From a bacterium (lineage in GTDB: Bacteria; Fibrobacterota; Fibrobacteria; UBA11236), in NCBI GenBank assembly GCA_900299345.1, contig OMJM01000039.1, positions 1-46,760 of the forward strand: 46,760 nt of DNA, given 5' to 3'. The notes beneath the pieces were generated by a model. The model worked only from the letters and a program-made list of their open reading frames with translations. It did no database searches and was not told where the DNA came from. How positions within the stretch are numbered: position 1 is the first letter of the stretch; each line of letters opens with the position of its first letter. Both the position numbers and the translations under genes were made by a program. Of this stretch, positions 9,997 through 43,726 are shown in pieces.

Positions 9997-10097
9997 GTCT
10001 GTTGCGGACTCTCCGGGCCGTGTTCTTCAAAGCGCAGCGAAATCTATATAAATCGCTCTGTCTCAAGGCCGTCGTTTAACTCCGTTTTGACCCAAAA

Positions 10098-29414: not shown

Positions 29415-30302
29415 ATGATTCCATCCGAAATTCTTCGCAAGGTCCGTCAGATCGAGATCCGCACACGCAGTGTGGTGAATTCGGTATTGTCCGGAGCCTA
29501 TTCCTCCACCTTCAAGGGACGCGGCATGGAGTTCGCCGAAGTGCGAGAATACCTGCCCGGCGACGAGATACGCTCCATCGACTGGAACGTGACCGCACGT
29601 CAGGGCCATCCCTTCGTGAAGAAATACGTGGAAGAGCGTGAACTCACAGTGTTGCTGGTGGTGGATGCCTCTTCATCCGGTGAGTTCGGCAGCCAGCGCG
29701 AGATGAAGGGCGAGGTCATGGCGACCATCAGCGCGCTGCTCGCATTCTCAGCCATCAAGAACAACGATCGCGTCGGCCTGCTCATCTTCACCTCCAAGGT
29801 GGAGAAATACATCCCGCCGCAAAAAGGCAAGAAGCACGTGATGCGCGTCATCCGTGAACTGCTCTATCATGAGCCGGAAGAACGCGGCACGGATCTAGGC
29901 GCTGCTTTGGAGCAGGTGAACCGATTGCTGAAGCGCCGCGCCGTGGTCTTTCTCGTGTCCGACTTCGCTTCCGCCGATTTCCAACGCCCCATGCGATTAC
30001 TGCAACAACGGCACGATGCCGTAGCTATCACCGTGGTCGATCCGCGCGAACGCGATTTACCGGATGTCGGTTTCCTGGAACTGGAAGATGCGGAAACCGG
30101 GGAGATCGTACTGATCGATACGGGCAGCCCGGAATTCCGCGAGACCTTCCGCAAGGAAGTGCAGACGGAGAGCTCCCATTTGCGTCGCCTCTTCCGCCGC
30201 ACCAATACGGACTTCGTCGAGGTATTCATCAAACCCGATTACGACGATACGATTCAACCCCTGCTCGATTATTTCCGCAAGAGGGCCAAGAACCGTGGGT
30301 AA
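29415..30302 (+). CDS. DUF58-family protein with VWA-like metal site
   Basis: A 295-residue protein. The DUF58 signature is REYLPGDEIRSIDWNVTARQGHPFVKKY (44-71). A VWA-like domain follows, with a MIDAS-type DASSS (84-88). DUF58 proteins lie beside moxR in nearly all Bat-type operons and are thought to be MoxR clients. Start ATG 29415, 41 bp after moxR, with the palindromic repeat in the gap. The C-terminal helices (DDTIQPLLDYFRKRAKNRG) end where the next gene's GTG start overlaps. Confidence 0.92.
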   Translation: MIPSEILRKVRQIEIRTRSVVNSVLSGAYSSTFKGRGMEFAEVREYLPGDEIRSIDWNVTARQGHPFVKKYVEERELTVLLVVDASSSGEFGSQREMKGEVMATISALLAFSAIKNNDRVGLLIFTSKVEKYIPPQKGKKHVMRVIRELLYHEPEERGTDLGAALEQVNRLLKRRAVVFLVSDFASADFQRPMRLLQQRHDAVAITVVDPRERDLPDVGFLELEDAETGEIVLIDTGSPEFRETFRKEVQTESSHLRRLFRRTNTDFVEVFIKPDYDDTIQPLLDYFRKRAKNRG

Positions 30303-31263
30303 ATGGGAATGGGAATTGCGCACCACTGGTACGGGCGGACGGCCGTCCGCCCGTAAGTTGGTCATTGCAATCATATCATTCATGGCCGCCACGTTCGGCA
30401 CCCCTGTCGTGGATATCACCGCCAAGGTGGATCGATCCGAGATCACCATCGGCGATCGCATCCAATACGAAATCGACATCACCTACCCTTCGACCGGACA
30501 CGTGGAACTCCCTGCCGTGCTGGGCAATCTCGGCGCGTTCGAAGTCAAGGAGTACAAGACGGAAAACAACAAGATGCAGGATGGGCGTACGCTCACAAAA
30601 CATCTATTCACTATCTCCACATTCACTGTCGGCCCTTATACCCTGCCGCCGCAACGCGTGGAATATCGCGAGGGTACTGATACCGCCACGCTGGCTCTGT
30701 ATACCCAACCCACCGAGATCAAGGTCAAGCGCACCGCACCAGAGAACGTCAAGGACATTGCCGACATCGCGGATGTCGCGGATCTTCCCGAGCCTCCACC
30801 ATGGGGTCTTATTGGGGTGGGCGTACTGTTGGCTGGACTTGCGGGATATTTTCTCTGGCGCAAGCTGAATCCCAAACAAGCAACTGTCGGCGATGCACCT
30901 CGTCTGCCGCCCTACGAAGAAGTCTTGAAACGTCTGACCGATTTGCGCACTGCTGACCTCCCGAAGAACAACCAATTGCGCGAGTTCGCTTTTGCCTTAT
31001 CCGAAGTCCTGCGGAATTACGTGGGACGGCGTTTCGGCATCGAGGCGCTGGAATCAACGACCGTGGAGTTTCTGGAAAAAGCCGCCACGCTTCCATTGAC
31101 GCAGGCGCAGCAGGAATGGCTCCATATTTTCTGCGATGCGCTCGATCCTCTCAAGTATGCCACGGCAGGCATCGCATCGAGTGAAGCCGAACGGTTAATG
31201 AACGAACTACAGGAGTTCGCGGAACAAACCAAACCACGTCCCGAACCGGAGCAAGGGAAATGA
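30295..31263 (+). CDS. BatD-like membrane protein (second of three)
   Basis: A 322-residue protein from GTG 30295. A hydrophobic signal-like segment (LVIAIISFMAATFG) is followed by a periplasmic beta domain (DRSEITIGDRIQYEIDITYP to about 145). A membrane helix lies at about 170-187 (GLIGVGVLLAGLAGYFLW), with a cytosolic helical domain holding LREFAFALSEVLRNYVGRRFGIEALE. The start overlaps the DUF58 stop by 8 bp, with GAGGG upstream. The second palindromic repeat is then translated as part of residues 12-21. TTG 30358 or ATG 30382 would avoid this but lack Shine-Dalgarno sequences. Confidence 0.7.
   Translation: MGKWEWELRTTGTGGRPSARKLVIAIISFMAATFGTPVVDITAKVDRSEITIGDRIQYEIDITYPSTGHVELPAVLGNLGAFEVKEYKTENNKMQDGRTLTKHLFTISTFTVGPYTLPPQRVEYREGTDTATLALYTQPTEIKVKRTAPENVKDIADIADVADLPEPPPWGLIGVGVLLAGLAGYFLWRKLNPKQATVGDAPRLPPYEEVLKRLTDLRTADLPKNNQLREFAFALSEVLRNYVGRRFGIEALESTTVEFLEKAATLPLTQAQQEWLHIFCDALDPLKYATAGIASSEAERLMNELQEFAEQTKPRPEPEQGK
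30330..30355. repeat. Palindromic repeat, copy 2
   Basis: A perfect 26-bp palindrome: TACGGGCGGAC (30330-30340), GGCC, and GTCCGCCCGTA (30345-30355), followed by AG. It shares GGGCGGAC, GTCCGCCC and GTAAG with copy 1 at 29373-29393. It lies at the junction between the DUF58 gene and the next gene, in the 5' part of the latter if GTG 30295 is the start. Confidence 0.8.
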
Positions 31264-32258
31264 TTCTGCCGCATTTCCAGAATCCGTGGGCCTTCGTGCT
31301 GCTGCTCTTGATTCCATTGCTGGCGTGGGATTATTTCCAACGGCACCAGAAACGTCGCGCGAGCATCCGTTTCCCTTCTCTGTCCGTGGTCAAACGCATG
31401 CCGCAGAGCACCGCATATCGTTTCCGTCATATGCTTCTCTTTCTCCGCCTTGCAGCGGTATTCCTGCTTGTGACGGCGCTAGCGCGGCCACAGCAAGGCG
31501 AGGCGTTAGAGGAAGTTTCCGCGCAAGGCGTGGACATCGCCCTCATCCTCGACATTTCGAGTTCCATGCGCACGTTGGATTTCAAGCCCAAGAACCGCCT
31601 CGTAGCCGCGAAAAAGGTGATTGAAGATTTCATCATGGGACGCAAGCACGATCGCATCGGTCTCGTCGTATTCGCGGGTCACAGTTACACCCAATGCCCG
31701 CTCACTTTGGATTACAATGTGCTGGCCGAGCTATTGCGCAAGGTGGACTTTGGCCACGTGGAAGACGGAACCGCCATCGGGACCGGTCTGCTCAACGGCA
31801 TCAACCGCCTGCGCGGTTCCACGGCTAAGAGCAAGGTGGTGGTGTTGCTCACCGACGGGCAGAACAACGCCGGCGAAGTGGATCCCGTGACTGCCGCACG
31901 CGCCGCTCAAGCGCTGGGGATCAAGGTATACACCATCGGTATGGGCAAGGACGGCGATCAGCCCATCGAAATCGATGACCCGGTATTCGGCAAGCGTATT
32001 GTTTCTGTGCGCACCGACGTGGACATGTCCATGCTTCGGCAAATCGCGCAAATCACGGGCGGAAAATCCTATCGGGCGCAGGACACGCATGCGCTGGAGG
32101 AGATTTACGGGGAAATCGACAAGCTGGAAAAATCGGAAATCAAAACCACCAGTTACTACCGCTATCACGAGCTGTTCATGACGCTGGCGTATGCGGCGTT
32201 GCTGTTAATCCTTGCCGAAGCCATTCTGGCGAATACCCGATTCAGGAAAGTCCCATGA
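31260..32258 (+). CDS. batA: VWA-domain membrane protein (BatA-like)
   Basis: A 332-residue protein with two N-terminal membrane helices (10-25 and 58-75), a VWA domain, and a C-terminal helix (LFMTLAYAALLLILAEAIL). The MIDAS motif is complete: DISSS (98-102), a Thr in EDGTAIGTGL, and LTDGQ further on. VWA domains of this family face the periplasm and bind partners through a divalent metal. It overlaps its upstream gene by 4 bp (ATGA) and the next VWA gene by 4 bp. Which of the two VWA genes is batA is set by order only. Confidence 0.9.
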   Translation: MILPHFQNPWAFVLLLLIPLLAWDYFQRHQKRRASIRFPSLSVVKRMPQSTAYRFRHMLLFLRLAAVFLLVTALARPQQGEALEEVSAQGVDIALILDISSSMRTLDFKPKNRLVAAKKVIEDFIMGRKHDRIGLVVFAGHSYTQCPLTLDYNVLAELLRKVDFGHVEDGTAIGTGLLNGINRLRGSTAKSKVVVLLTDGQNNAGEVDPVTAARAAQALGIKVYTIGMGKDGDQPIEIDDPVFGKRIVSVRTDVDMSMLRQIAQITGGKSYRAQDTHALEEIYGEIDKLEKSEIKTTSYYRYHELFMTLAYAALLLILAEAILANTRFRKVP

Positions 32259-33280
32259 GGTTTGGAAATCCCATCGCCATCTGGCTTCTGCTTGTGCTTC
32301 CGCTGCTTGCGGCGTTCTTCGCATGGGCCTTCTGGCGCAAGTCTGCCTTGTTGCGACGTTTCGCTGAAACCGAGATGCTGAAACGCATGGTCGCGGGCAC
32401 TTCGAAGACCCGGCAGTTCGTGAAGATGGGATTGCTGCTGCTCGCGGTATTTTTTCTGCTGCTCAGCCTGGCGCGGCCGCAATGGGGTACGAAGATGGAG
32501 TTGATGAAACGTCGCGGCCTGGACGTGGTCGTAGCCATGGACGTATCTAACTCCATGTATGCCGAAGACATCAAGCCGAACCGCCTCGCGCGCAGCAAAC
32601 AGGAAATCCAGCGCTTCGTGGAAAAACTGGGTGGAGATCGCGTGGCGTTGGTGGCCTTTGCGGGTGACGCATTCCTGCAGTGCCCGCTCACCTCGGATTA
32701 CGCCGCGTTCCGCATCTTCCTCGACGTGCTCGACCCGAACCTCATCGAAACACAGGGAACCGACATTGGCCGCGCCATCGAAACTTCGCTCAAAGCCTTC
32801 GACGTCCGCGATCGCAAGCATCGTGTGCTGTTGCTCCTCACCGACGGTGAAGATCACAGCGGTGAGGCGGAGCGCGCCGCGGAGGAAGCGGCCAAGGAAG
32901 GTGTGATGGTGTACACCGTGGGCATCGGCCTTCCTTCCGGCGTTCCCATTCCCGTGGACAATGGCAACGGGCAGGTGTCGTACAAGAAGGACGCGGACGG
33001 CAACATCGTGACCAGCCGCATGGACCCGGATCTTCTGGAACGCATCGCACAAAAAACGGGCGGAAAGTTCTACCACGCTGAACCCGGGCACTATGAGCTC
33101 CTCGACGTGCTCAAAGAAATCAACGGCATGGAGAAACGCGAATTCGACGAGGACAAATTCACCCGCTTTGAAGACCGCTATCAGATTCCCCTGGCCATCG
33201 GCCTCGCCTTGTTGGTGGCGGAAATGCTGATCTCGGATCGGCGTCGCCGCAAACGCGAGTGGACGGGGAGATTCTCATGA
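32255..33280 (+). CDS. batB: VWA-domain membrane protein (BatB-like)
   Basis: A 341-residue protein of the same plan as the gene before it: an N-terminal helix (IAIWLLLVLPLLAAFFAWAF), a second at about 57-71, and a VWA domain with MIDAS DVSNS (96-100) and LTDGED. A C-terminal helix (IPLAIGLALLVAEMLI) follows. Within the VWA core it is a diverged paralogue of BatA. It overlaps BatA and BatC by 4 bp each, so the genes are translationally coupled. Confidence 0.9.
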   Translation: MRFGNPIAIWLLLVLPLLAAFFAWAFWRKSALLRRFAETEMLKRMVAGTSKTRQFVKMGLLLLAVFFLLLSLARPQWGTKMELMKRRGLDVVVAMDVSNSMYAEDIKPNRLARSKQEIQRFVEKLGGDRVALVAFAGDAFLQCPLTSDYAAFRIFLDVLDPNLIETQGTDIGRAIETSLKAFDVRDRKHRVLLLLTDGEDHSGEAERAAEEAAKEGVMVYTVGIGLPSGVPIPVDNGNGQVSYKKDADGNIVTSRMDPDLLERIAQKTGGKFYHAEPGHYELLDVLKEINGMEKREFDEDKFTRFEDRYQIPLAIGLALLVAEMLISDRRRRKREWTGRFS

Positions 33281-34083
33281 GATCCTTCCGCTACATCGTA
33301 ACCCTTGCGTGCCTGCTCGCATTGCCTGAAGCCGGACGTGCCGAAACCACGAGCTTCTTCACCAAGCTGCTGCGTTCGTTCGGATTGCAAAGCTCTCCGG
33401 CCAAGGATGGAAACAAGGCCTACCACAAACAGGATTACGAAGGCGCGTTGCAAAAATACGGTGAAGCATCACTGGATCAACCCAATACACAGACGTTGGC
33501 TTACAACACTGGAAACGCCGACTTCCGCAAGAAGCGTTATGCCGAGGCCATTGCAGCCTACGGCAAAGCCTTGAACGGCAAAGATGCGGGACTGGCGGCC
33601 AAAGCCCATTACAACATGGGCAACGCCTTTTTCCGCAAGGGCGAAGCGGCCTTGCAGTCCGGGCAGCAGGACGGCCTCTCCGATTACCGCGAAGCGCTGG
33701 CACATTACAAGAAGTCTCTGGAGATCAACCCCTCCAGTTCGGACGCCAAGCGGAATGTCGAGGTGACGCAAATCCGCATTAAGGAATTGCTGGATCGCCA
33801 GCAACAGCAACAAAAACAAAATTCGCCGCAACAAAAGCCGCCCGAGCCCAGCGAGAAAGCCAAGGAGGCTTTGGCGCGCGCGTTGCAATTAGTGCAGCAA
33901 CGCCGCTACGACGACGCCAAGGCCGTGTTGGAACAGATTCTGGCCGAGGATCCCACGGCCGCTTCGTACAAAAGCCATTTACAACGTCTCGACGACGTAA
34001 TGAAAATCCTCCGGGGTGAAAAACCCTCCGCGCCGCTCCAACAGGATCCACGCGCGCAACAGGGCGGGACGGGAATCATATGA
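33277..34083 (+). CDS. batC: TPR protein (BatC-like)
   Basis: A 268-residue exported protein. The signal peptide (YIVTLACLLALPEAGRA) is followed by tetratricopeptide repeats: AYHKQDYEGALQKYGEA, TGNADFRKKRYAEAIAAYGKAL and AHYNMGNAFFRKGEAAL. A Gln/Lys-rich linker and a last repeat (ALQLVQQRRYDDAKAVLEQIL) complete it. BatC proteins act as periplasmic scaffolds for the BatA/BatB complex. ATG 33277 overlaps the preceding stop and has GGGGAG upstream. Confidence 0.85.
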   Translation: MRSFRYIVTLACLLALPEAGRAETTSFFTKLLRSFGLQSSPAKDGNKAYHKQDYEGALQKYGEASLDQPNTQTLAYNTGNADFRKKRYAEAIAAYGKALNGKDAGLAAKAHYNMGNAFFRKGEAALQSGQQDGLSDYREALAHYKKSLEINPSSSDAKRNVEVTQIRIKELLDRQQQQQKQNSPQQKPPEPSEKAKEALARALQLVQQRRYDDAKAVLEQILAEDPTAASYKSHLQRLDDVMKILRGEKPSAPLQQDPRAQQGGTGII

Positions 34084-34712
34084 GACTCCTCGTTCTGGCA
34101 TTCCTATTCGCGGCCGGCTCCGTGTTCGCTCTGGGCCGCAGCGCCGAGGATTATTTCCACGGCGCCGCCTACAAATACTTGGCGGGACGTCATCAGGAAG
34201 CCGCCGTGGAAGTTGAAGAGGGGCTTCGGGAACATCCAGGAGATCCGAAGCTTCAGATGCTGAGCGATGTACTCAAACAAATGAAGGATCAGCAGCGCCA
34301 GGATCAAAACCAAAGTGGTGGCGGAGATTCCAAGCAGAATCCGAAAGACAAAAAAGATCAGAAGGATCAAAAGGACGGCAAGGACCCAAACAAGGACTCC
34401 CAGAATCAGGGCAAGGACGATCAGAAAAAAGATTCACAAGACAAAAAACAGGATTCCAAAGACAAACAAAATCAAGACAAGGATTCGAACAAAGACAAAA
34501 ATCAGCAACCACAACCGAAGCCTGAAGACAAGCAAGGCCAGCAGCCCAAGGATTCTTCCGGTCAGGGCGGACAGGCCCGCCGCATGCCCGGGCAGATGAG
34601 CAAAGACGAGGCGGAGCGGTTGTTAAATTCGTTCATCGATGAAGAGAAGAAGGCACATCAGGACAAACAAGGCAAGCCGGCTGAAGGCGGGCAACCCGAG
34701 CAGGATTGGTGA
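34080..34712 (+). CDS. Exported TPR fragment with long Lys/Asp/Gln-rich tail
   Basis: A 210-residue protein with signal peptide MRLLVLAFLFAAGSVFA. One tetratricopeptide-like hairpin follows (YFHGAAYKYLAGRHQEAAVEVEEGL). Then residues 66-160 are extreme low complexity: repeated Lys, Asp, Gln, Asn and Ser with many DKK, QKD and KDQ units. A small C-terminal helix pair contains MSKDEAERLLNSFIDEEKK. It resembles a shortened BatC. ATG overlaps at both ends with neighbours. The highly charged middle is probably disordered in the periplasm. Confidence 0.7.
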   Translation: MRLLVLAFLFAAGSVFALGRSAEDYFHGAAYKYLAGRHQEAAVEVEEGLREHPGDPKLQMLSDVLKQMKDQQRQDQNQSGGGDSKQNPKDKKDQKDQKDGKDPNKDSQNQGKDDQKKDSQDKKQDSKDKQNQDKDSNKDKNQQPQPKPEDKQGQQPKDSSGQGGQARRMPGQMSKDEAERLLNSFIDEEKKAHQDKQGKPAEGGQPEQDW

Positions 34713-36493
34713 TGCCGATGTCTAATCTCCGTTTCCTATCGCTTCCAATCCTTCTTCTTTCGTGGGGTTCGTCTTTCGCCGCCATTCAAGCTGGAGCGAA
34801 TCTGAGCACCAATCAGGTAATGACCGGCGAAGCCTTTGTCCTTCAAGTTCAGGTATCCGACGATAAAAAGGAAGAGCTGCCGTGGCCGCAAGTGGGCGGA
34901 CTCGAACACTTTCAAGTGTCCAAGAACACTTCAATGTCCTCCAGTTCGCAAACCACCATTGTCAACGGACACGTCAGTCAGAGCAGCGCCTACATCACCA
35001 CCTTCGTATATACGTTGACTGCCCAGCAGCCCGGAAATTTCACCCTCGGCCCCATCCGCTACGAGTTCAAGGATTTCAAGCAGGAACTCGGCAGCGCAGC
35101 CATTACCGTGTCCAAATCCGTGGCCGGGTTGGCGGCGCAATCCTTCCTGAGCAAGCGCAAGGCCTATGTCGGGGAACAAATCCTCTACACATTGCGCATC
35201 GTGCCCAAAGAAGGCGTGCAATCCATCAGCCTGCCCGAAGGCATGCAGAAGTTCATCGGTGAAAAATTCTTCTTCGAACAACTGGATAAAAACTTCACCC
35301 CCAAGATTGAGACCATCAACGGACAGCAGGTCAAAGTGTTCGATGCGCACATCGCGCTATTCCCATTGCTGGCGGGCAAGGCCAGCCTCGAAGGCATTCC
35401 GGTGGAATATCAGGTGGTGCGGCGACAACGGCGCGGCCAATCCATGTTCGATGCATTCGACGACGCATTTTTCGGCGGCGGCAACGTGATCACACAACGC
35501 GCCATCGCCGAATCCCAGAAGATGGAGGTGTTGTCTCTGCCTCCGGGCGCGCCGACAGGATTCACGGGTTCGGTGGGCCAGTATGCACTCTCCGCAAAGG
35601 TGGATAAAAATGCCGTGGCGGCAGGTGACGCCATCACCCTGACTGTCACCATCCGGGGCAATGGACAGCCCAAGTCCATGACCAAGCCGGTGATGCCCGA
35701 TCTGCAGGACTTCGAGGTCTTCGATCCCGAAGAAAGCAGTTCCAGCGCGCAACAGGGAAATACGCAATGGACCACAAAGGTGTTCAAGTATGCGCTGGTT
35801 CCCCACCGCCAGGGTTCCTACAAGCTTTCGCAAATCGCCTTCCCATACTTCGATCCTGAGCGCGGGGCCTACGCCCGCGCCGAATCTGCGCCTATTGAAA
35901 TCCAGGTCGGTCCGGGTAAGGAAGAGAATGCAACCTTCAGCCGCGCCTTGCCACAACGCGAAATTGCCGAACTGGGTTCCGACATTCGACACATCAAGAC
36001 CGATGTGGCGCGTTTGGAAAACGAAGGCGATCTCCCCTACCATCACGTCTGGTTTGCGGGACTGTTCACCTTGCCGCCACTGGCGTTGGCGGGCGCGTTA
36101 GTGTTGCGTCGCCGTCGCGACCGGTTGCGCTCCGATTCTGCGTTCCTGCGCAAAACGCAAGCGGGATCCAAAATGCGGCGACGTCTCAAGGAAGCGCAAC
36201 AAGCCCTGACTGCCGGTAAACCACGCGAATTCTATCAGGAACTTTCCGAGGCCCTGATCGGATTTGTCAGCGATGCGCTCAATCAGGAGTTCCGTGGCAT
36301 GACTTTGGACGAAGCCAAGACCGCGCTTGCCTCCAAAGGCGCGGCGGTCGGCACGATTGCGACCTACGAAACTCTCATGCAACGCTGCGACTTCGTCCGC
36401 TTCGCGGGCCTGAGCGCCTCGGCACTGGAGTTGAAGAGCGACATGGACTCCGCGGAAAAACTGCTGGAACAGCTGGACAGGGAGCTGGGATGA
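34712..36493 (+). CDS. batD: BatD-like oxygen-tolerance protein
   Basis: A 593-residue protein matching BatD in length and order. A signal peptide precedes several periplasmic beta domains, with NLSTNQVMTGEAFVLQVQVSD at the start and VDKNAVAAGDAITLTVTIRGNG near 300. A membrane helix (HHVWFAGLFTLPPLALAGALVL) follows, then a cytosolic helical tail with FYQELSEALIGFVSDALNQEFRGMTLDEA. The tail resembles those of the shorter proteins at 27431 and 30295. Start ATG 34712 in TGATG with AGGA upstream; TTG 34706 is possible. Confidence 0.9.
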   Translation: MPMSNLRFLSLPILLLSWGSSFAAIQAGANLSTNQVMTGEAFVLQVQVSDDKKEELPWPQVGGLEHFQVSKNTSMSSSSQTTIVNGHVSQSSAYITTFVYTLTAQQPGNFTLGPIRYEFKDFKQELGSAAITVSKSVAGLAAQSFLSKRKAYVGEQILYTLRIVPKEGVQSISLPEGMQKFIGEKFFFEQLDKNFTPKIETINGQQVKVFDAHIALFPLLAGKASLEGIPVEYQVVRRQRRGQSMFDAFDDAFFGGGNVITQRAIAESQKMEVLSLPPGAPTGFTGSVGQYALSAKVDKNAVAAGDAITLTVTIRGNGQPKSMTKPVMPDLQDFEVFDPEESSSSAQQGNTQWTTKVFKYALVPHRQGSYKLSQIAFPYFDPERGAYARAESAPIEIQVGPGKEENATFSRALPQREIAELGSDIRHIKTDVARLENEGDLPYHHVWFAGLFTLPPLALAGALVLRRRRDRLRSDSAFLRKTQAGSKMRRRLKEAQQALTAGKPREFYQELSEALIGFVSDALNQEFRGMTLDEAKTALASKGAAVGTIATYETLMQRCDFVRFAGLSASALELKSDMDSAEKLLEQLDRELG

Positions 36494-37248
36494 AATCTCT
36501 TATTGCGCTGTTGTTCGCTTTTGCGGCCATCACCACCCTCCATGCCACCGATCTTTCCGCGGCCACGGAGTTGTTCAAACAAGGAAATGCGGCATACGAG
36601 AAAGGCAGCTTCGAGGAAGCCGCCGCTGCTTATCAAAAGGCGGAAGACCTTGGCGTGGCCAATGCCCGCCTGTATTACAACCACGGCAACGCCCTGTTCC
36701 GCCTCAACCAGCTGGGTCCCGCCATCCTGAGTTACGAACGCGCCCGCAAGCTGGCGCCTCTCGACGAGGATATTGCTGCCAATCTCCGTTTCGCGCAAGC
36801 CCGGGTGGTGGACAAAATCCCGGAACCCGAACGCAACGTCTTGACCAAAATCCTGTGGGGCCTTCACTCCGCCTATTCCTTGCACACAGGTGTATGGATC
36901 GCCTTTGGATTGTTTGCGCTCGCCTTTGCCGGAGTTTGCGCGACACTGCTTCTGGCGACTTCCCGCTGGCTCTTCATCACCCTTTCGACAATCTCCGTAT
37001 TGGCGTTGCTCGCCTTCTCCCCTTCCCTGTTCTACAAGATTCATCAGCAGGAAAGCGAGGAGTACGGCATCGTACTCTCTCAATCCGTTGAGATGTACAG
37101 CGGGCCCGGAGAAAACTATCAGGTGCTGGCCAAGGTGCACGAAGGCACACGATTCGAAATCGTGGAATTACACGGCGAATGGCTGTCAGTGAAACTGGCC
37201 AATGGCAAGGGCGGTTACGTGAAGGCCGACCGGCTCGGAAAAGTGTGA
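36490..37248 (+). CDS. batE: TPR and SH3 protein (BatE-like)
   Basis: A 252-residue protein. The signal peptide (LIALLFAFAAITTLHA) precedes tetratricopeptide repeats (ELFKQGNAAYEKGSFEEAAAAYQKAE, LYYNHGNALFRLNQLGPAILSYERA). Two membrane helices follow (about 135-155 and 160-182), and a bacterial SH3 domain ends the protein (VEMYSGPGENYQVLAKVHEGTRFEI, GYVKADRL). TPR plus SH3 is the BatE layout. It closes the operon; a DUF423 gene follows after 1 bp. Confidence 0.9.
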   Translation: MKSLIALLFAFAAITTLHATDLSAATELFKQGNAAYEKGSFEEAAAAYQKAEDLGVANARLYYNHGNALFRLNQLGPAILSYERARKLAPLDEDIAANLRFAQARVVDKIPEPERNVLTKILWGLHSAYSLHTGVWIAFGLFALAFAGVCATLLLATSRWLFITLSTISVLALLAFSPSLFYKIHQQESEEYGIVLSQSVEMYSGPGENYQVLAKVHEGTRFEIVELHGEWLSVKLANGKGGYVKADRLGKV

Positions 37249-37249
37249 C

Positions 37250-37603
37250 ATGGCCTTTGTCCGCATCGGCGCATTGTTGGGATTCCTCGGCGTGGCATTC
37301 GGCGCTTTCGGCGCCCATGCGCTGAAAAACCGGTTGTCACCGGAGTCCATGCACATCTGGCATACGGCCTCATTCTACCATCTTGTGCATGCCGTGGTTC
37401 TGCTGGCACTGGGATTTTACAGCAAGACTTCCGGAAATACGACCCGGTTTTTGGGAAGTTTTTTTCTTGCCGGGATCGTTCTGTTTTCCGGGAGTCTTTA
37501 TACGCTGGCGCTCACCGGTATCAAAGCCTTCGGAGCCATCACCCCGCTGGGCGGCATCTGCCTGATGATCGGGTGGGGATGTCTGGCCTTGAAAAAGGCC
37601 TAG
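37250..37603 (+). CDS. DUF423-family membrane protein (YgdD-like)
   Basis: A 117-residue protein with four hydrophobic segments and the DUF423 start IGALLGFLGVAFGAFGAHALKNRL, then FYHLVHAVVLLALG and TPLGGICLMIGWGCLAL. Small inner-membrane proteins of this family have no confirmed activity. Start ATG 37250, one base after batE, so it may be the last gene of that transcript. Its TAG stop shares the palindrome CTAG with the stop of the convergent enolase-superfamily gene. Confidence 0.9.
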   Translation: MAFVRIGALLGFLGVAFGAFGAHALKNRLSPESMHIWHTASFYHLVHAVVLLALGFYSKTSGNTTRFLGSFFLAGIVLFSGSLYTLALTGIKAFGAITPLGGICLMIGWGCLALKKA

Positions 37604-38871
37604 CCCTTCCAAGTTCTGGCGGACAGGTCTTTGACCTTGTCCTCATCCACTTCGACGCCCAAGCCCGGGCCTTTGGGAATTTTCACCCGACCACCCGTGA
37701 CGGTAATAGGTTCCTTGAGAACGCTGTCGCCAAGGAACTGCGGCCCGTTCAAAGCCGCGGGACGCTTGAGTCCATAAGCGCCGTACAGAATCAAAGAAGC
37801 CGCCAGCGAAATATCCGGATCGGTCAGACCGCTTCCCAGGAACAGCAGGTTGTTCTTCTCCAGCAGATTCAACTGGGCCACCGCCGAAGTGAGGCCACCG
37901 CAGCGGGAGGGCTTCATGGCAATGCCGCTAAGCATTTTCAATTGGATGAACTCCGAGACTTCAACCGGGGATACACAACCTTCGTCCATGATGATGGGAA
38001 GGGCTCCCTGTTTGACCAGCTGCTGATAGCCCGAAATGTTGTTGGGGTGCAAGGCGCCTTCGAACACCGCTACGCCGGCATCTGCCAGCTTGGGTGCCAT
38101 TTCCAATGCCGTGGCCACATCATAACCGCAATTGGCGTCCGCCCACAAAAATCCGTCGGGAGCGGCCTTCTTCACGATGCGGCACAAATCGAGATCGTAT
38201 TTCGTGTCCGGTGCAATCTTGATGTTGAAGTTCTGGTAACCCCTGTCGCGTCCTTTTTGCATCAGCGCTTCGGTCTCGCCCAATTCCTTGGGATTCAGCG
38301 TCCAGCTCAACAGGAGATCATCAGGCGTTTTGCGGCCCCACAGTTCGGCCACGTTCTTCTTGAGGGCCTTGCCGATCAGATCGTACAGGGCGATATCGAT
38401 TCCCGCCTTGGTGATCGGATACGACGTGGAAAAATCCGAAGCCATCTCCTTGGTCATCGTATGATGGATGTCCTCGAGATTGAAGACATCCTTGCCGATC
38501 AAGACCGGGACGAGATAGTTCTTCAGGCACGCGACGGCGCCCTCAAGGGTTTCGCCGCTCCAACGCGGGATGGGAACGCTCTGTCCCCAACCCACTGTTC
38601 CGTCGTTCGCGGTGATCTTGAGAATGACCGAAGGCCTTCCACTGCCGCCAACCGGGCCTTCGAAAAACTTGAAACGCATCACCATCGGGTACCAGACCGG
38701 GTAGATGTCGATCTTTTCGATGGTCAGCTTCGTCCCATGGGCAAAGTCGGGATACATGGGGTCGTGCGAGGTCATCGGAGCAGGGGCTGCATCCGAAAAA
38801 ACATTCTTTGCATCCAACAGGCCAGCCAGTCCGGCGAGGGCCACACTCTTTGAAAATTCACGGCGATCCAT
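37600..38871 (-). CDS. Tat-exported enolase-superfamily enzyme (muconate-lactonizing/epimerase-like)
   Basis: A 423-residue protein. A twin-arginine signal opens it (RREFSK at 3-8, then VALAGLAGLLDA). The enolase-superfamily lid and barrel follow, with metal and catalytic sites visible: NIKIA (Lys after strand 2), LWADANCG (Asp), VFEGAL (Glu), IMDEGC (Asp) and AMKPSRCGG (Lys opposite). Such enzymes abstract a proton alpha to a carboxylate: epimerases, cycloisomerases and dehydratases. Export is rare for the family. It lies 13 bp after the barrel gene and likely shares its transcript. Confidence 0.85.
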   Translation of the reverse strand: MDRREFSKSVALAGLAGLLDAKNVFSDAAPAPMTSHDPMYPDFAHGTKLTIEKIDIYPVWYPMVMRFKFFEGPVGGSGRPSVILKITANDGTVGWGQSVPIPRWSGETLEGAVACLKNYLVPVLIGKDVFNLEDIHHTMTKEMASDFSTSYPITKAGIDIALYDLIGKALKKNVAELWGRKTPDDLLLSWTLNPKELGETEALMQKGRDRGYQNFNIKIAPDTKYDLDLCRIVKKAAPDGFLWADANCGYDVATALEMAPKLADAGVAVFEGALHPNNISGYQQLVKQGALPIIMDEGCVSPVEVSEFIQLKMLSGIAMKPSRCGGLTSAVAQLNLLEKNNLLFLGSGLTDPDISLAASLILYGAYGLKRPAALNGPQFLGDSVLKEPITVTGGRVKIPKGPGLGVEVDEDKVKDLSARTWKG

Positions 38872-38884
38872 ATTATCCTACGCC

Positions 38885-40441
38885 TCAGATGCCGAAGTTA
38901 ACGCTGACGACGTAGTACCAGTCCTTGGGTGTGCGCAGCATACTGGGACCGGTCCAGTATCCAGGAAAATACGTGTCCTGCGCGCGGAAATGGTCATTCG
39001 CCACCTGGGCGCGCACCGAAATGCCCGTGATGACTTGCTTGACAGCGTACAAGGTCCACTTCCAGTCGTCACGGTGATTGTCAAAGTCGTCCTTCAGCAG
39101 CACCGAGTAATAGTCCTGTTGGGCCGCGTTGGGCTTATTGCCCAAGCCTCCGCCATTGTCCTGACTGTTATTGTCGGGAACCGCGTTGTAAGCATAAGCC
39201 GGATTCAGCTTGGCCTGCTGGCTGCCCATATCATCGGGATTACCGTTCCGGAAGTATTCGACTTCGAAGGAGAGCGTGTTCAACAGACGGAATGTGGGCA
39301 AATTCACCCCCAGCATGATCGGCATTCTTTCGGTGCGATCATCGTAGACGCCGGGATAGTTTTTCACGCCCAACAGATCGACTTCGCCGTACACCTTCAG
39401 GTCCTCAGGATTGAGAATGGCGATCGGCATCATCTTCTGGATGTTGAATGAGGCGCGGGCCATGAGCTTGATGGCCTTGAACGTGAAATAGTCCACAGAG
39501 GGATTATAGTGCGCGATCACCGAATCGGCTCCCGCGACTCCGTTGACCAGGTCCGCGTCCCAGTTAGTGTCAATGGAAGGAGCCAGAATCTTGTCGATAT
39601 CTCCATAACCCGCCACGATGTGCTGGCCGGCTGCATAGTGCAGCGTATCACCCGTAAGCGGGTCGACGGCGTTGATGGCTGGAAGATTGTCGAAGGTGTA
39701 AACAGAATTGTTCCTGGTCTTGGGCGAGGTGACCTTCCCCTTGATCGGGAGATAGTGATAGAGCGACACGCCCGCACCGATCTGGAAGGGTCCCTTGGTG
39801 TATTCGCCCACATAAGCGGGCGTAAAGTCTCCGGGGGGACGGAAGTCACGTTCGCTGTACAGCAGGAAGCTGTGCTTCAAATCACCATTCAACTGCGAAA
39901 GGCTGAACTCGATTCCAATCACCTTGGCCAAGGCATTGTCCATGATGGACCAACCGCCTGTGACCGCGAAGGTGGGATATGCGCCCGCGCGAAACAGGTA
40001 CTCACCCAAGTTCTTGGAATCGGGGTTGTACTTGTAGCCAAAGTACCCCACCCGCAAAGCACCCCAGGATTTGTCGGGATCACCGAATTTGTACAGGGCC
40101 TGGGCTTGACTGATACCGGGACCGAATTTCACGCCATAACCGGCGCCACCGCTTTGGATCACCGTAGGATAGGAGTTGTAGAAAACGCCGCCCGCCCCCA
40201 CCTTGATGTTCAAACGTCGGTTGACGAGGACTTCCTGCGTAAGACTGACACCAACCTGTGAGAGATAATAGTCGTCTGGATCCACACCGATTACGCGCGA
40301 CCCTCCGACAATCTGTCCGGTCTCGATCTTGGTGCCAATCACGAGAGGCTTTCGCTCAATCGTGTCAGGCTGAGCAGCCGCAAAAGCTTCTCCGGAAAAA
40401 AGGGCGAAGCCGGTTATCAGGGAAACTATGTGATTGCGCAT
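38885..40441 (-). CDS. Large outer-membrane beta-barrel-like protein
   Basis: A 518-residue exported protein. Signal peptide (SLITGFALFSGEAFAA), then long stretches of alternating aromatic and polar residues (GALRVGYFGYKYNPDS, FRAGAYPTFAVTGGW, QIGAGVSLYHYLPIKG). It ends YYVVSVNFGI, an aromatic-rich end as in outer-membrane barrels. No known substrate. Start ATG 40441 with AGGTGG upstream (GTG 40453 is an alternative). It precedes the Tat-exported enzyme gene by 13 bp and follows a terminator-like hairpin. Confidence 0.75.
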   Translation of the reverse strand: MRNHIVSLITGFALFSGEAFAAAQPDTIERKPLVIGTKIETGQIVGGSRVIGVDPDDYYLSQVGVSLTQEVLVNRRLNIKVGAGGVFYNSYPTVIQSGGAGYGVKFGPGISQAQALYKFGDPDKSWGALRVGYFGYKYNPDSKNLGEYLFRAGAYPTFAVTGGWSIMDNALAKVIGIEFSLSQLNGDLKHSFLLYSERDFRPPGDFTPAYVGEYTKGPFQIGAGVSLYHYLPIKGKVTSPKTRNNSVYTFDNLPAINAVDPLTGDTLHYAAGQHIVAGYGDIDKILAPSIDTNWDADLVNGVAGADSVIAHYNPSVDYFTFKAIKLMARASFNIQKMMPIAILNPEDLKVYGEVDLLGVKNYPGVYDDRTERMPIMLGVNLPTFRLLNTLSFEVEYFRNGNPDDMGSQQAKLNPAYAYNAVPDNNSQDNGGGLGNKPNAAQQDYYSVLLKDDFDNHRDDWKWTLYAVKQVITGISVRAQVANDHFRAQDTYFPGYWTGPSMLRTPKDWYYVVSVNFGI

Positions 40442-40480
40442 ACTTCCAACCACCTTTCGACGAGGATCAAGGAAAAGGAT

Positions 40481-40506
40481 GGGAAAGCCTACCTGCGGGC
40501 TTTCCC
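40481..40506 (-). terminator. Terminator-like stem-loop after the ThuA gene
   Basis: GGGAAAGCC (40481-40489) and GGCTTTCCC (40498-40506) form a perfect 9-bp stem with an 8-base loop. On the minus strand it lies 7 bp after the ThuA-like stop and is followed by ATCCTTTTCC, a fair pyrimidine run. It separates the dehydrogenase/ThuA pair from the barrel/enolase pair. Confidence 0.6.
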
Positions 40507-40513
40507 CAAGGAA

Positions 40514-41698
40514 CTATAGAAGAACAATACGGCGCGTGAAGGGGGCCTTCATGCTGGCGGTATGCACCTGTAGATAATAGATGCCCGGCTTGAGAATGTT
40601 GCCGAAGGAATATTCGTGGCTTCCTTCGCCCCGGAAACCTGCCATTTTTGAACCACGCGTATTGAAAATTTCAACGCTGTGAGATCCCGGCTGGGAAAAC
40701 ACAATCTTGAAGGCATCCGACTTGATCTTGTCACTGGCGTTGTCGGGAATCCAGAAGGTGCTGGTTCCACGGGGGGTAACGCACGCACCAGCCACCTGAT
40801 GGGTGGCCTTCTTGTTGTACTCCACGTAATTCGAGTCCTTGCAGCCGTTATACCCAGCCAGAAAACGCATGGTTCCCACGAAACTGGAATCCGCGAACGT
40901 CTTCAGTGCACCCGTAGCCGTGGCCAACACCGTCGTATGATACATGCCGTTCAGGGCGAAACGGCCGCCGTCGAAATCGCGAATCCACGCAAGGGGATGA
41001 TCCTCGCCCATGGTGGAATTGAAAGTGCCGGTGAATTTGGAATCCGCAGTCGTCCACATCATCCGGGTACCCGGCAGACCGCGAGGATTGCCCACATAGG
41101 TATACCACTCATCACTCCAACTGAAAGATTGGCCAGCGGTATATTGGGTTCCATAGATGGCGCTCAATGCCTCCGCGTCGACATATACCGGACCCGTCAC
41201 GCCCGCCGCCGCATAGGTGTTGTAGTCCTTGCCCATCATGTTGATCCACCAGGTCCAGGGAATGCCTTGGGAGGTCGTCGAACTGCGGACACACTGATGG
41301 AAACACGCCAACCCTTTGTTGCCACCCTCGTACCAGCGTTGCATGCGGTTGCCCGTAGCCGTATCGATATGTTCGTACATACGGTACACGTTATACCAAA
41401 CGACCACGTCATATTTGTCGAGACTGACCTGGCTCAGCGGAGAGGTGCTGTTGGTGAGGTTGAAAGTATCGAGAGTCGCCACATTGGCCGCTATCAACTT
41501 CGCCATATAGGGGAAATTAACAGGCGTCGAAGTGTTATGATCGCTGCCCCACCAGCCCTTCATCAGGGCGAACTTGGCGGTAGGCATGCGGGCCGTGACC
41601 GGACCATTTTGCGACAGGGACTCTCCAATCGTCATTCCGAGACAGACGGCCAGAAAAACGACCGTCTTCGTTTTGCACACAAACATTCGCTGATTCAT
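40514..41698 (-). CDS. Exported ThuA-like protein with C-terminal sorting-type domain
   Basis: A 394-residue exported protein. After a signal peptide (VVFLAVCLGMTIGESLSQ) comes a ThuA-like domain (KFALMKGWWGSDHNTS, DKYDVVVWYNVYRMYEH, GNKGLACFHQCVR). Domains of this type occur with sugar dehydrogenases, but no sugar-binding residues can be assigned. The last 60 residues form a beta domain (HSVEIFNTRGSKMAGFRG, KPGIYYLQVH, FTRRIVLL). Their plan is that of type IX secretion (type A) sorting domains. Start ATG 41698 with GGAG upstream. It follows the dehydrogenase gene by 18 bp. Confidence 0.8.
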   Translation of the reverse strand: MNQRMFVCKTKTVVFLAVCLGMTIGESLSQNGPVTARMPTAKFALMKGWWGSDHNTSTPVNFPYMAKLIAANVATLDTFNLTNSTSPLSQVSLDKYDVVVWYNVYRMYEHIDTATGNRMQRWYEGGNKGLACFHQCVRSSTTSQGIPWTWWINMMGKDYNTYAAAGVTGPVYVDAEALSAIYGTQYTAGQSFSWSDEWYTYVGNPRGLPGTRMMWTTADSKFTGTFNSTMGEDHPLAWIRDFDGGRFALNGMYHTTVLATATGALKTFADSSFVGTMRFLAGYNGCKDSNYVEYNKKATHQVAGACVTPRGTSTFWIPDNASDKIKSDAFKIVFSQPGSHSVEIFNTRGSKMAGFRGEGSHEYSFGNILKPGIYYLQVHTASMKAPFTRRIVLL

Positions 41699-41716
41699 GA
41701 TGTATCTCTCCGTTTT

Positions 41717-43726
41717 TTATGGCCGCGCCACGCTGGAAATCCACTTCTGGCCGGCGGCATTGCTCACTTCAATCCAGCGCATGCCATGGCCCAACGTGGA
41801 CGCAGACATCACAAATTCATTCTGATTATTCACATTGACGCTGGACAATGTCCGTCCGGAAGCTTCCAATACACGCAGGACGTAAGCCCCGGGATCCGGC
41901 AACGCGACGGACAAACCATCGCCTTTCCAGCGGACGCTCAAGCCTTGTGAACCATCGCGATTGCGAGGAACCAGCGCGGTGGCGCTGGTTCCCGCATCCA
42001 CACCGGGTCCGAACTTGTTGAGCGTGTACCATGCCACACCACCGCCGGTGCCATCGCCCCACATGGAATGACCCGAAACTGCGGCAATGCCGGTCACATT
42101 GAACTGCACTGTCGATCCCCATGTCCTGTCCTCAACGCTGTTGGGCGTGGTGACCGTCGGGCGTTGTATCAGACCGGAAATGGTCAACGTCGCGCGCGTC
42201 TTGTCCGAGTTCAAGGTCACATCGCTGACGTTAAGCGTCGAAACGCCCGGAAGTTGATAACCCGCACCGTAGCTTTGATCGTTCGCAGAACCGCCCTGCA
42301 AACAGCCCCATTGACGCACCGTGAAATTGCTGGTTGCAGCCGAAACAATCGGTTCGGTGAACTCGATTTCCATCTGGTTGGAACTCTTGGAACGAATGGC
42401 CTTCATCTCGAAGACCGTGGTGTCTTTGGGAACCAGACGCACTAAACCATACTGCAATCCGCCTACGAAACCGTGGGATCCCTGGCTTTCAGTTCCGGGT
42501 GAATTGCCTCCGCCCAGATAGACATAGCCGTCAGGACCGTACGAAAGACTGTGCACGTTGGTTCGGAAATCGGGAAGCACTCCGGCGATGGCGGCCGCGC
42601 TGTTGTTTCCCGTTCCCACACCAAAACCCTGGCTGAAGGGAAAGAGCGCGCCTTGATAGACGAAATCGCCTGAAGTTCCCACAGGAATCTTTTCCAAGAA
42701 CACCCGGTTCAAGCCGGTGGTGTGATCGACTCCCACCAACATCTGATTTTTGAAGCGACCATCCTTTAACGTCAACATATCCGTGGCGACACGGGCAACC
42801 GTGGGATTTGTCGCGGTGCCTCCAGTGGGATTGCTGCCATAGGGGAAGATAATGGCGGGAGCCGTCCGCAGTTGATTGTCAAAAGGCGTCTTGGGATGCC
42901 CGAAGAATCGTCCTTGCCGCACGTGGTACATCGCGGAGGCTGGTTCAAAGCTGCCCTGATTGTCCGTGTACATCATTTCGCTGTCGGGGCTCCATGCGAG
43001 ACCAACCGGATTGCGGATTCCACAAGCGAACGAATCCGCAACGGCTCCATTCTGGGAAACTTTCCAGACACATCCCTTGCCGCGGTAGATATTAGCGGTC
43101 GTAAACTCGGACACACCGCCGGGAATCAATCCCATTCCCACCGTGGCGTAAAAGAAACCGCTTTTGTACAACAGTCCGCCCACCCATGTGCGATACCCGG
43201 AACCAGAGAGTCCACTGTTGTAACCCAACACACCCTTGTAAAGCACGCTCTTCGTATAAGTCCCGCCACCAGCCGGAGTCAGTTTGGTCAAGCCGTCCTG
43301 GTTGTCCACCACGTAGATGCTATCACCGACAGCAACCGCACCCGTGGGCATTTGATATCCCGTGGAAACCTGTGACACGGTGACCGACGCATTGCTTGAG
43401 GCTGCGGGAATGCCGGTGAACATGTACCCATTCGAAATACCGAGGCGGTTGGCATCATTGCCGCCTGCCGCATTTGAACTCATGCTCGCGATGAACAGGC
43501 GACCATCGGGAAGCCAAGCCATGCCGCCTGTGTTCGGAGCTGCGGTGGCTCCCGAAGTCGTCATGCTCGAGGGCCGCATGCTGACAATGCTGTACCCGGG
43601 ATGAACACCCGGCACCAAATAGAAGGGACGCTGCCCCCAACTTCCATGTTGGCCGCAAAGAACTCCTGCCAATGCAAGGAGCCAGATTTTGGAGCTACCG
43701 GCCTTGGAGAAATTGATTCGAATCAT
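41717..43726 (-). CDS. Exported sugar-dehydrogenase-like beta-propeller protein with C-terminal sorting-type domain
   Basis: A 669-residue exported protein. A signal peptide (IWLLALAGVLCGQHGSWG) is followed by a propeller like that of glucose/sorbosone dehydrogenases: GGMAWLPDGRLFIASMSSNA, TGYQMPTGAVAVGDSIYVVDNQDGL, RNPVGLAWSPDSEMMYTDNQG and SLSYGPDGYVYLGGG. The catalytic His cannot be fixed by eye, so activity is uncertain. The C-terminal 80 residues (GAYVLRVLEASGRTLSSV, GMRWIEVSNAAGQKWISSV) form a beta domain like a sorting domain. It is paired with the ThuA-like gene. Start ATG 43726. Confidence 0.75.
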   Translation of the reverse strand: MIRINFSKAGSSKIWLLALAGVLCGQHGSWGQRPFYLVPGVHPGYSIVSMRPSSMTTSGATAAPNTGGMAWLPDGRLFIASMSSNAAGGNDANRLGISNGYMFTGIPAASSNASVTVSQVSTGYQMPTGAVAVGDSIYVVDNQDGLTKLTPAGGGTYTKSVLYKGVLGYNSGLSGSGYRTWVGGLLYKSGFFYATVGMGLIPGGVSEFTTANIYRGKGCVWKVSQNGAVADSFACGIRNPVGLAWSPDSEMMYTDNQGSFEPASAMYHVRQGRFFGHPKTPFDNQLRTAPAIIFPYGSNPTGGTATNPTVARVATDMLTLKDGRFKNQMLVGVDHTTGLNRVFLEKIPVGTSGDFVYQGALFPFSQGFGVGTGNNSAAAIAGVLPDFRTNVHSLSYGPDGYVYLGGGNSPGTESQGSHGFVGGLQYGLVRLVPKDTTVFEMKAIRSKSSNQMEIEFTEPIVSAATSNFTVRQWGCLQGGSANDQSYGAGYQLPGVSTLNVSDVTLNSDKTRATLTISGLIQRPTVTTPNSVEDRTWGSTVQFNVTGIAAVSGHSMWGDGTGGGVAWYTLNKFGPGVDAGTSATALVPRNRDGSQGLSVRWKGDGLSVALPDPGAYVLRVLEASGRTLSSVNVNNQNEFVMSASTLGHGMRWIEVSNAAGQKWISSVARP

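Follow-up and report, generated by a model that had tools for sequence, protein, structure and literature searches.

What do four adjacent genes, all apparently encoding exported proteins, do for a bacterium of the phylum Fibrobacterota? The question is posed by contig OMJM01000039.1 (46,760 nucleotides, the whole stretch analyzed here, hereafter the window), which comes from the 2.24-Mb genome, in 91 contigs, of an uncultured Fibrobacterota bacterium. The first-pass annotation, made from the letters of the window, placed these genes on the minus strand between positions 37600 and 43726, and all four open reading frames are found there: a beta-propeller-type protein of 669 amino acids of the GSDH/PVC type, TIGR02604-like (41717-43726); a ThuA-domain protein of 394 amino acids (40514-41698); a putative outer-membrane beta-barrel (38885-40453); and an enolase-superfamily enzyme of the muconate-lactonizing kind (37600-38871). 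In this order, the genes are separated by 18, 60 and 13 bases. The main result lies outside the frame of the first-pass annotation, which missed the 24 barrel paralogues of this genome: the barrel gene belongs to a greatly expanded, unnamed family that is linked to surface sugar enzymes. From the sequence data, the four-gene block may be one of about a dozen barrel-centred loci for extracytoplasmic glycoside processing that would need no soluble cofactors, a reading that we consider almost evenly balanced, if slightly on the doubtful side.

The barrel family and its neighbours

A profile of the barrel family recognizes 24 genes in the 2.24-Mb genome (37 matching pieces that correspond to 23 open reading frames and the window gene), many of them in tandem. 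Across the phylum, the profile has matches in 38 of 167 genomes, which belong to 21 of the 40 genera; six of these genomes are marginal (E-values from 2.6e-5 to 9.1e-4) and all six come from a single family, which we take to be the Fibrobacteraceae. Family members start with a secretion leader and show an alternating hydrophobicity pattern; aromatic residues make up 13% of their sequence, cysteine is nearly absent, and WY(Y) is conserved close to the C-terminus. Scans of 25 members produced no meaningful Pfam or NCBIfam match and, specifically, no TonB-dependent receptor or plug domain in Pfam at E-values up to 1 (0/25); the profile has no match in PDB, and a literature search, conducted largely outside subscription papers, retrieved no report of the gene set or of the barrel family. 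As judged from these searches, the family appears to be undescribed, and the new point is its expansion together with its surface partners, which is broader than the four-gene unit. The leader, strand pattern and C-terminus fit the outer-membrane barrel proposed in the first-pass annotation but are not proof of it, and the fold is putative.

Between two and four barrel paralogues follow one another in tandem in loci L136 (contig C4, 2-6850), L131 (C56, 6837-17525) and L130 (C54, 11267-15814). Contigs C4, C35, C56 and C91 either are short or have a start or an end that falls within or close to barrel runs, which suggests that barrel repeats break the assembly and that the true number of family members exceeds 24.

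The link to sugar enzymes emerges from the genus sample, which consists of the genome carrying the window and three congeners. The barrel matches of these four genomes were grouped into 39 clusters and the matches of other families within 3 kb were counted, about 4% being expected. Such proximity is seen for 19 of the 40 3-keto-disaccharide hydrolases (binomial P 4e-17), 14 of 30 ThuA proteins (P 3e-13) and 25 of 94 type IX sorting tails (P 5e-15), with pooled P values that are overstated because the binomial treats matches as independent whereas the congeners are related and share orthologous loci; 23 of the 39 clusters have a type IX tail within 3 kb. Within the window's own genome alone, five of 11 hydrolases (P 1e-4) and three of five ThuA proteins (P 1e-3) are near barrels. 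Pfam scans of 20 chosen barrel neighbours identify 3keto-disac_hyd, GSDH, ThuA, sorting tails, Gfo/Idh, Nuc_H_symport, a multihaem cytochrome and GH43. Several of the 3-keto-disaccharide hydrolases near sister barrels themselves carry type IX tails, and relatives of the window propeller are encoded in two barrel loci as well (E-values 9e-75 and 3e-51).

In one of the sister loci (L130, 3085-9551), genes for a barrel, a 3-keto-disaccharide hydrolase, a multihaem cytochrome and a nucleoside-type symporter are consecutive, and a gene for a Gfo/Idh protein is divergent from them; by its gene content, the locus resembles a full extracytoplasmic oxidation system that includes an electron carrier of its own.

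Conservation and predicted export of the four-gene block

The four-gene block is one conserved unit. All four sampled genus genomes (4/4) keep the gene order propeller, ThuA, barrel, enolase-type enzyme, but in three different neighbourhoods: by eye, ftsA/ftsZ-like genes lie upstream of the block in one congener, two others share pyruvate-carboxylase-like and prolyl-tRNA-synthetase-like genes, and queries with nine window genes that flank the block found no match at the orthologous loci of the congeners. Given that the same gene order recurs in three contexts, the block behaves as a unit. Among the 61 genomes searched, the enolase-type orthologue is present in the three other genus genomes (3/3) and in a single sister-genus genome; 11 genomes have any enolase-type match, those beyond the orthologues being distant paralogues only (23-28% identity).

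Two partial copies of the block, L026 and L027, are present in the genome of the sister genus (G007). In L026, the ThuA, barrel and enolase-type genes are found together, in the vicinity of a zinc-dehydrogenase-like gene and sugar-ABC-like (ATP-binding cassette) genes (by eye), and no propeller gene was found within the 20 kb taken. L027 (1548-5268) contains the same trio plus a diverged propeller gene (26% identity); here, thuA is split between two reading frames and the enolase-type gene is without the stretch between residues 195 and 253 that carries K218 and D245, which suggests a copy that is decaying or mis-assembled. In both copies, an AraC-type regulator is divergent from thuA (by eye). 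The first-pass annotation named the separate occurrence of the two gene pairs in relatives as a refutation; the whole set is kept in the genus, whereas elsewhere the parts can separate, as in L026 with no propeller in the 20 kb taken and in Hydrogenedentota-type loci with the enolase-type gene alone (see below).

The ThuA protein is readily assigned to its family (PF06283, 62.1 bits against a cut-off of 33.4, E-value 1.1e-16), as are all five members of the ThuA family compared (5/5), in which the histidines are conserved. The propeller is far less clear. Its match to the GSDH profile (E-value 0.0018, 18 bits) is below the cut-off of 25; TIGR02604 matches two of five members of the propeller family (best E-value 0.0089, under the cut-off) and DUF7133 also two of five (best E-value 0.066). 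The structure model of the propeller has a predicted local distance difference test score (pLDDT) of 48, and was used only as weak support; the 50 Foldseek matches listed are mostly propellers, with template-modelling (TM) scores of at most 0.26 on the query. PDB sequence searches with the ThuA and propeller proteins gave nothing useful. Nevertheless, the propeller family has a conserved R-N-P stretch of the GSDH type, and these features weakly suggest a dehydrogenase-type protein similar to GSDH or TIGR02604.

The conservation of gene order across different contexts in the four genomes, the persistence of three of the genes in the sister genus, the R-N-P stretch, the ThuA histidines and the catalytic residues intact in all 17 enolase-type sequences compared below argue against a less specific explanation, in which the propeller and ThuA would be non-catalytic surface proteins for binding or sensing, the barrel would serve as a general porin, and the enolase-type enzyme would be a cross-phylum passenger. 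Such an assemblage would be compatible with a propeller that falls below every cut-off and with an enolase-type gene that stands alone in another phylum, but it appears improbable.

The type IX secretion system, on which the surface export envisaged in the first-pass annotation depends and whose absence was named there as a refutation, is represented by SprA in 4/4 genus genomes (E-value 5.2e-143 in the window's own), and the own genome also encodes 25 type IX tail matches with E-values of 1e-3 or lower and TatC of the twin-arginine translocation (Tat) system (E-value 4.1e-64). The sorting tail of the window ThuA protein (residues 331-391; 40526-40708, minus strand) matches TIGR04183 with an E-value of 0.0042, and the match is above the cut-off in 3/3 congener orthologues; together with SprA in the genome, the tail supports the ThuA protein as predicted type IX cargo. 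For the propeller tail, no match was found in the Pfam and NCBIfam libraries in five family members. A home-made tail model, derived from the C-termini of eight tail-carrying proteins encoded close to sister barrels, matches 5/5 ThuA proteins and 2/5 propellers (the window propeller is not one of the two), but none of five enolase-type (0/5) or 25 barrel proteins (0/25), which weakly hints at a type IX tail in the propeller. Of the two sorting tails initially proposed, that of ThuA is supported and that of the propeller weakly so. The enolase-type enzyme starts with a twin-arginine leader, read from the translation (RREFSK with R3 and R4; 38780-38871, minus strand), and both arginines are retained in 5/5 Fibrobacterota sequences; with TatC encoded in the genome, this agrees with the Tat export suggested in the first-pass annotation and makes the enzyme a predicted Tat substrate.

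The enolase-type enzyme and its relatives in another phylum

Both domains of the enolase-type enzyme score above their cut-offs (MR_MLE_C, PF13378, E-value 3.4e-39; MR_MLE_N, PF02746, E-value 1.5e-15). The nearest PDB structures are chloromuconate and muconate cycloisomerases, i.e., 1nu5 for the single sequence (E-value 9.7e-37) and 3i4k for a profile of 17 rows (E-value 1.5e-53). The 17-row comparison drops L045 and L046, which are partial at contig ends, and L047, a Chitinophagaceae sequence with 25% identity. The metal site is complete and accompanied by two lysines, with K218, D245, E271, D296 and K320 present in 17/17 rows. On this sequence evidence, the enzyme is assigned to the muconate-lactonizing subgroup of the enolase superfamily. 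Its fold, metal ligands and lysine pair resemble those of the muconate and chloromuconate cycloisomerases, 1nu5 and 3i4k; unlike these, it has N-x-K in place of K-x-K (N216 replaces the first lysine, with N in all 17 rows), a twin-arginine leader, and the stretches GSGLT(D/E)PD and PAALNGPQFLG, which are common to the 17 rows (one letter of the first is unread in L034). The profile for muconate cycloisomerase proper, TIGR02534, yields 147.6 bits and does not reach its cut-off of 334.95.

Dipeptide epimerases and N-acylamino-acid racemases (3jva, 1jpm, 2zc8) are also among the matched structures, so that the protein could be conceived as an exported enzyme of this kind that acts on cell-wall or foreign peptides, the sugar link being misleading. 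However, the muconate cycloisomerases score better in both PDB searches, the neighbouring genes encode ThuA together with a propeller of GSDH-like type, and a gene for alpha-L-fucosidase adjoins one of the orthologues. Dipeptide epimerases have a D-x-D motif after the last strand; in the present family, AALNGPQ stands there, a placement judged by eye with no epimerase in the alignment. A peptide epimerase or racemase therefore seems hardly probable. The epimerisation and the sugar-acid substrate named in the first-pass annotation are hypothetical, the nearest structures being muconate cycloisomerases.

A genome scan for relatives with two exact motifs, by which they are under-sampled, identified 18 loci: three in Fibrobacteres/Fibrobacteria, 13 in Hydrogenedentota/Hydrogenedentes, one in an uncultured bacterium and one, distant, in Chitinophagaceae. 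The 12 Hydrogenedentota-type rows compared are 58-65% identical to the window protein and have the same active-site letters; nine of the 12 have a twin-arginine leader, the remainder being L039, L040 and L041, the last of which starts at a contig end. In the tree, which additionally leaves out L014, the Fibrobacterota rows form one clade (96/100) whose position among the Hydrogenedentota-type rows is unresolved. The distribution of the orthologues suggests that the gene was transferred between phyla, in a direction that the tree cannot give.

The Hydrogenedentota orthologues have a context of their own. According to Pfam, a PF14100 (DUF6807) gene is located just downstream in L033 (9169-10125), L034 (4085-5056), L040 (9386-10423) and L041 (1184-2128); the PF14100 protein in L037 is a by-eye call only. 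One Hydrogenedentota-type orthologue is next to a Gfo/Idh oxidoreductase gene. In L039, the gene directly downstream of the leaderless orthologue encodes the alpha-L-fucosidase (9303-10619), a hint at a fucose-related substrate.

A candidate pathway and its known counterparts

We infer the order of reactions, the substrate, the barrel fold, its role in transport and the propeller cofactor in the following scheme. The type IX system would display ThuA, and probably also the propeller, on the cell surface, where the propeller would oxidise a sugar or oligosaccharide via a bound cofactor and ThuA would rearrange or cleave the oxidised product, which the barrel would then admit to the periplasm. 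There, the Tat-exported enolase-type enzyme, using only a divalent metal, would abstract a proton next to a carboxylate, with K218 or K320 as the base, resulting in elimination, opening or cycloisomerisation of an acid-sugar product before inner-membrane uptake. Because a propeller with a bound cofactor, ThuA, the 3-keto hydrolases and a metal-only enolase-type enzyme would need no soluble nucleotide, such chemistry would suit the surface and the periplasm. Of the surface or periplasmic oxidation and epimerisation pathway put forward in the first-pass annotation, the unit and both export systems stand, and the pathway itself is plausible but unproven.

Several observations weigh against the interpretation of the block as a barrel-centred locus for glycoside processing. 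The propeller is below every curated cut-off in the Pfam and NCBIfam scans. GSDH matches show no clear link to barrels, with four of 52 within 3 kb (P 0.13) and seven of 52 within 5 kb (P 0.02), weak extra GSDH pieces being left out of the count; the overstatement of the pooled P values points the same way. No 3-keto-disaccharide hydrolase gene is found within 5 kb of the window barrel. Strand count does not cleanly separate the barrel from controls, and a barrel structure model obtained from a four-row alignment (pLDDT 27) was discarded. The state of L026 indicates that the parts of a strict unit can separate, and no barrel, ThuA or propeller is found near the enolase-type orthologue in the Hydrogenedentota-type loci; the barrel profile matches 0/13 Hydrogenedentota-type genomes, a set that has no known positive and is weak evidence alone.

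A strict 3-keto-glycoside route, with a C3 dehydrogenase, ThuA handling the 3-keto product and the enolase-type enzyme as the beta-eliminase for a uronide 3-keto glycoside, is an unlikely variant. In rhizobia, ThuA has been linked to 3-keto sugars; however, the enolase superfamily needs a carboxylate, and no known 3-keto-glycoside eliminase of this kind belongs to this superfamily. The 3-keto-disaccharide hydrolases, Gfo/Idh and Nuc_H_symport proteins of sister barrel loci fit this route, as does the demonstrated metal-dependent beta-elimination of 3-keto glycosides (PMC10628242), but the window barrel has no such hydrolase nearby and no Gfo/Idh gene is found among the four genes scanned beside the block.

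For the less committed scheme of surface oxidation followed by periplasmic proton abstraction, the nearest precedent, and one that qualifies the statement in the first-pass annotation that no pathway with this exact set is described, is a putative operon of the soil metagenome clone Lac161, assigned to Verrucomicrobia (PMC5342196). Besides a TIGR02604 propeller, the operon encodes members of the enolase superfamily and of PF14100 and a further propeller-type protein, and two of its proteins are reported to release glucose from lactose, so that an enolase-superfamily protein is tied to a propeller dehydrogenase and sugar cleavage. As in Lac161, the Hydrogenedentota-type orthologues of the window enzyme adjoin PF14100 genes. 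Nothing described for the Lac161 operon corresponds to the barrel, ThuA or type IX tail of the window locus, and its enolase-superfamily protein is called OSBS-like.

A second counterpart is the DUF1080 (PF06439) pathway, e.g., Caulobacter LacABC/CCNA_01705 and Bacteroides BT2157, in which the DUF1080 proteins have a known or proposed activity on 3-keto sugars, one of them in a proposed periplasmic location (PMC9007349). The shared features are extracytoplasmic oxidation and cleavage and the PF06439 hydrolases, here beside sister barrels. That pathway is periplasmic and membrane-bound (PMC9007349), whereas here several hydrolases and ThuA have type IX tails and each locus has its own barrel. 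The window locus further differs in that no PF06439 gene is present within 5 kb of its barrel.

The SusC/SusD loci of Bacteroidota include many paralogous outer-membrane barrels, each with its own surface protein, and the many barrel paralogues beside surface proteins are reminiscent of this arrangement. Unlike SusC, the barrels described here are about 450-550 amino acids long and lack a TonB-receptor domain (25/25), and their partners are type IX-tailed enzymes. A broader proposal, which is possible but more doubtful than the assignment of the block itself, is that the Fibrobacterota other than the rumen family possess a SusC/SusD counterpart, composed of barrels with type IX-displayed oxidative glycoside-cleaving proteins such as 3-keto hydrolases, ThuA and propellers, in which the window locus would be a branch with a periplasmic, cofactor-free enolase-superfamily lyase or cycloisomerase shared across phyla. 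In Fibrobacter succinogenes, proteomics could not identify a MalA-like barrel, and the outer-membrane importer is open (PMC6851124). A barrel family that is specific to this lineage and linked to surface sugar enzymes is a testable sugar-import candidate for the phylum outside Fibrobacteraceae. If the proposal is true, oxidative glycoside breakdown would be extended beyond the periplasm to include the cell surface, and would gain an exported, cofactor-free enolase-superfamily enzyme.

Some minor features of the region complete the picture. The listed start of the barrel gene is a GTG at its 40453 end, and the in-frame ATG at 40441 is probably the likelier start. In the spacer that separates the ThuA and barrel genes, a pattern scan detects a nine-pair hairpin (40481-40506, minus strand), which possibly serves as an attenuator or message stabiliser; the same scan finds 11 terminator-like sites in the region against 8.9 expected, so that the hairpin is weak. 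The adjoining block on the plus strand (29415-37248) is, by eye, a Bat-operon-like run of genes encoding DUF58-like, two VWA-type, TPR, BatD-like and SH3-type proteins.

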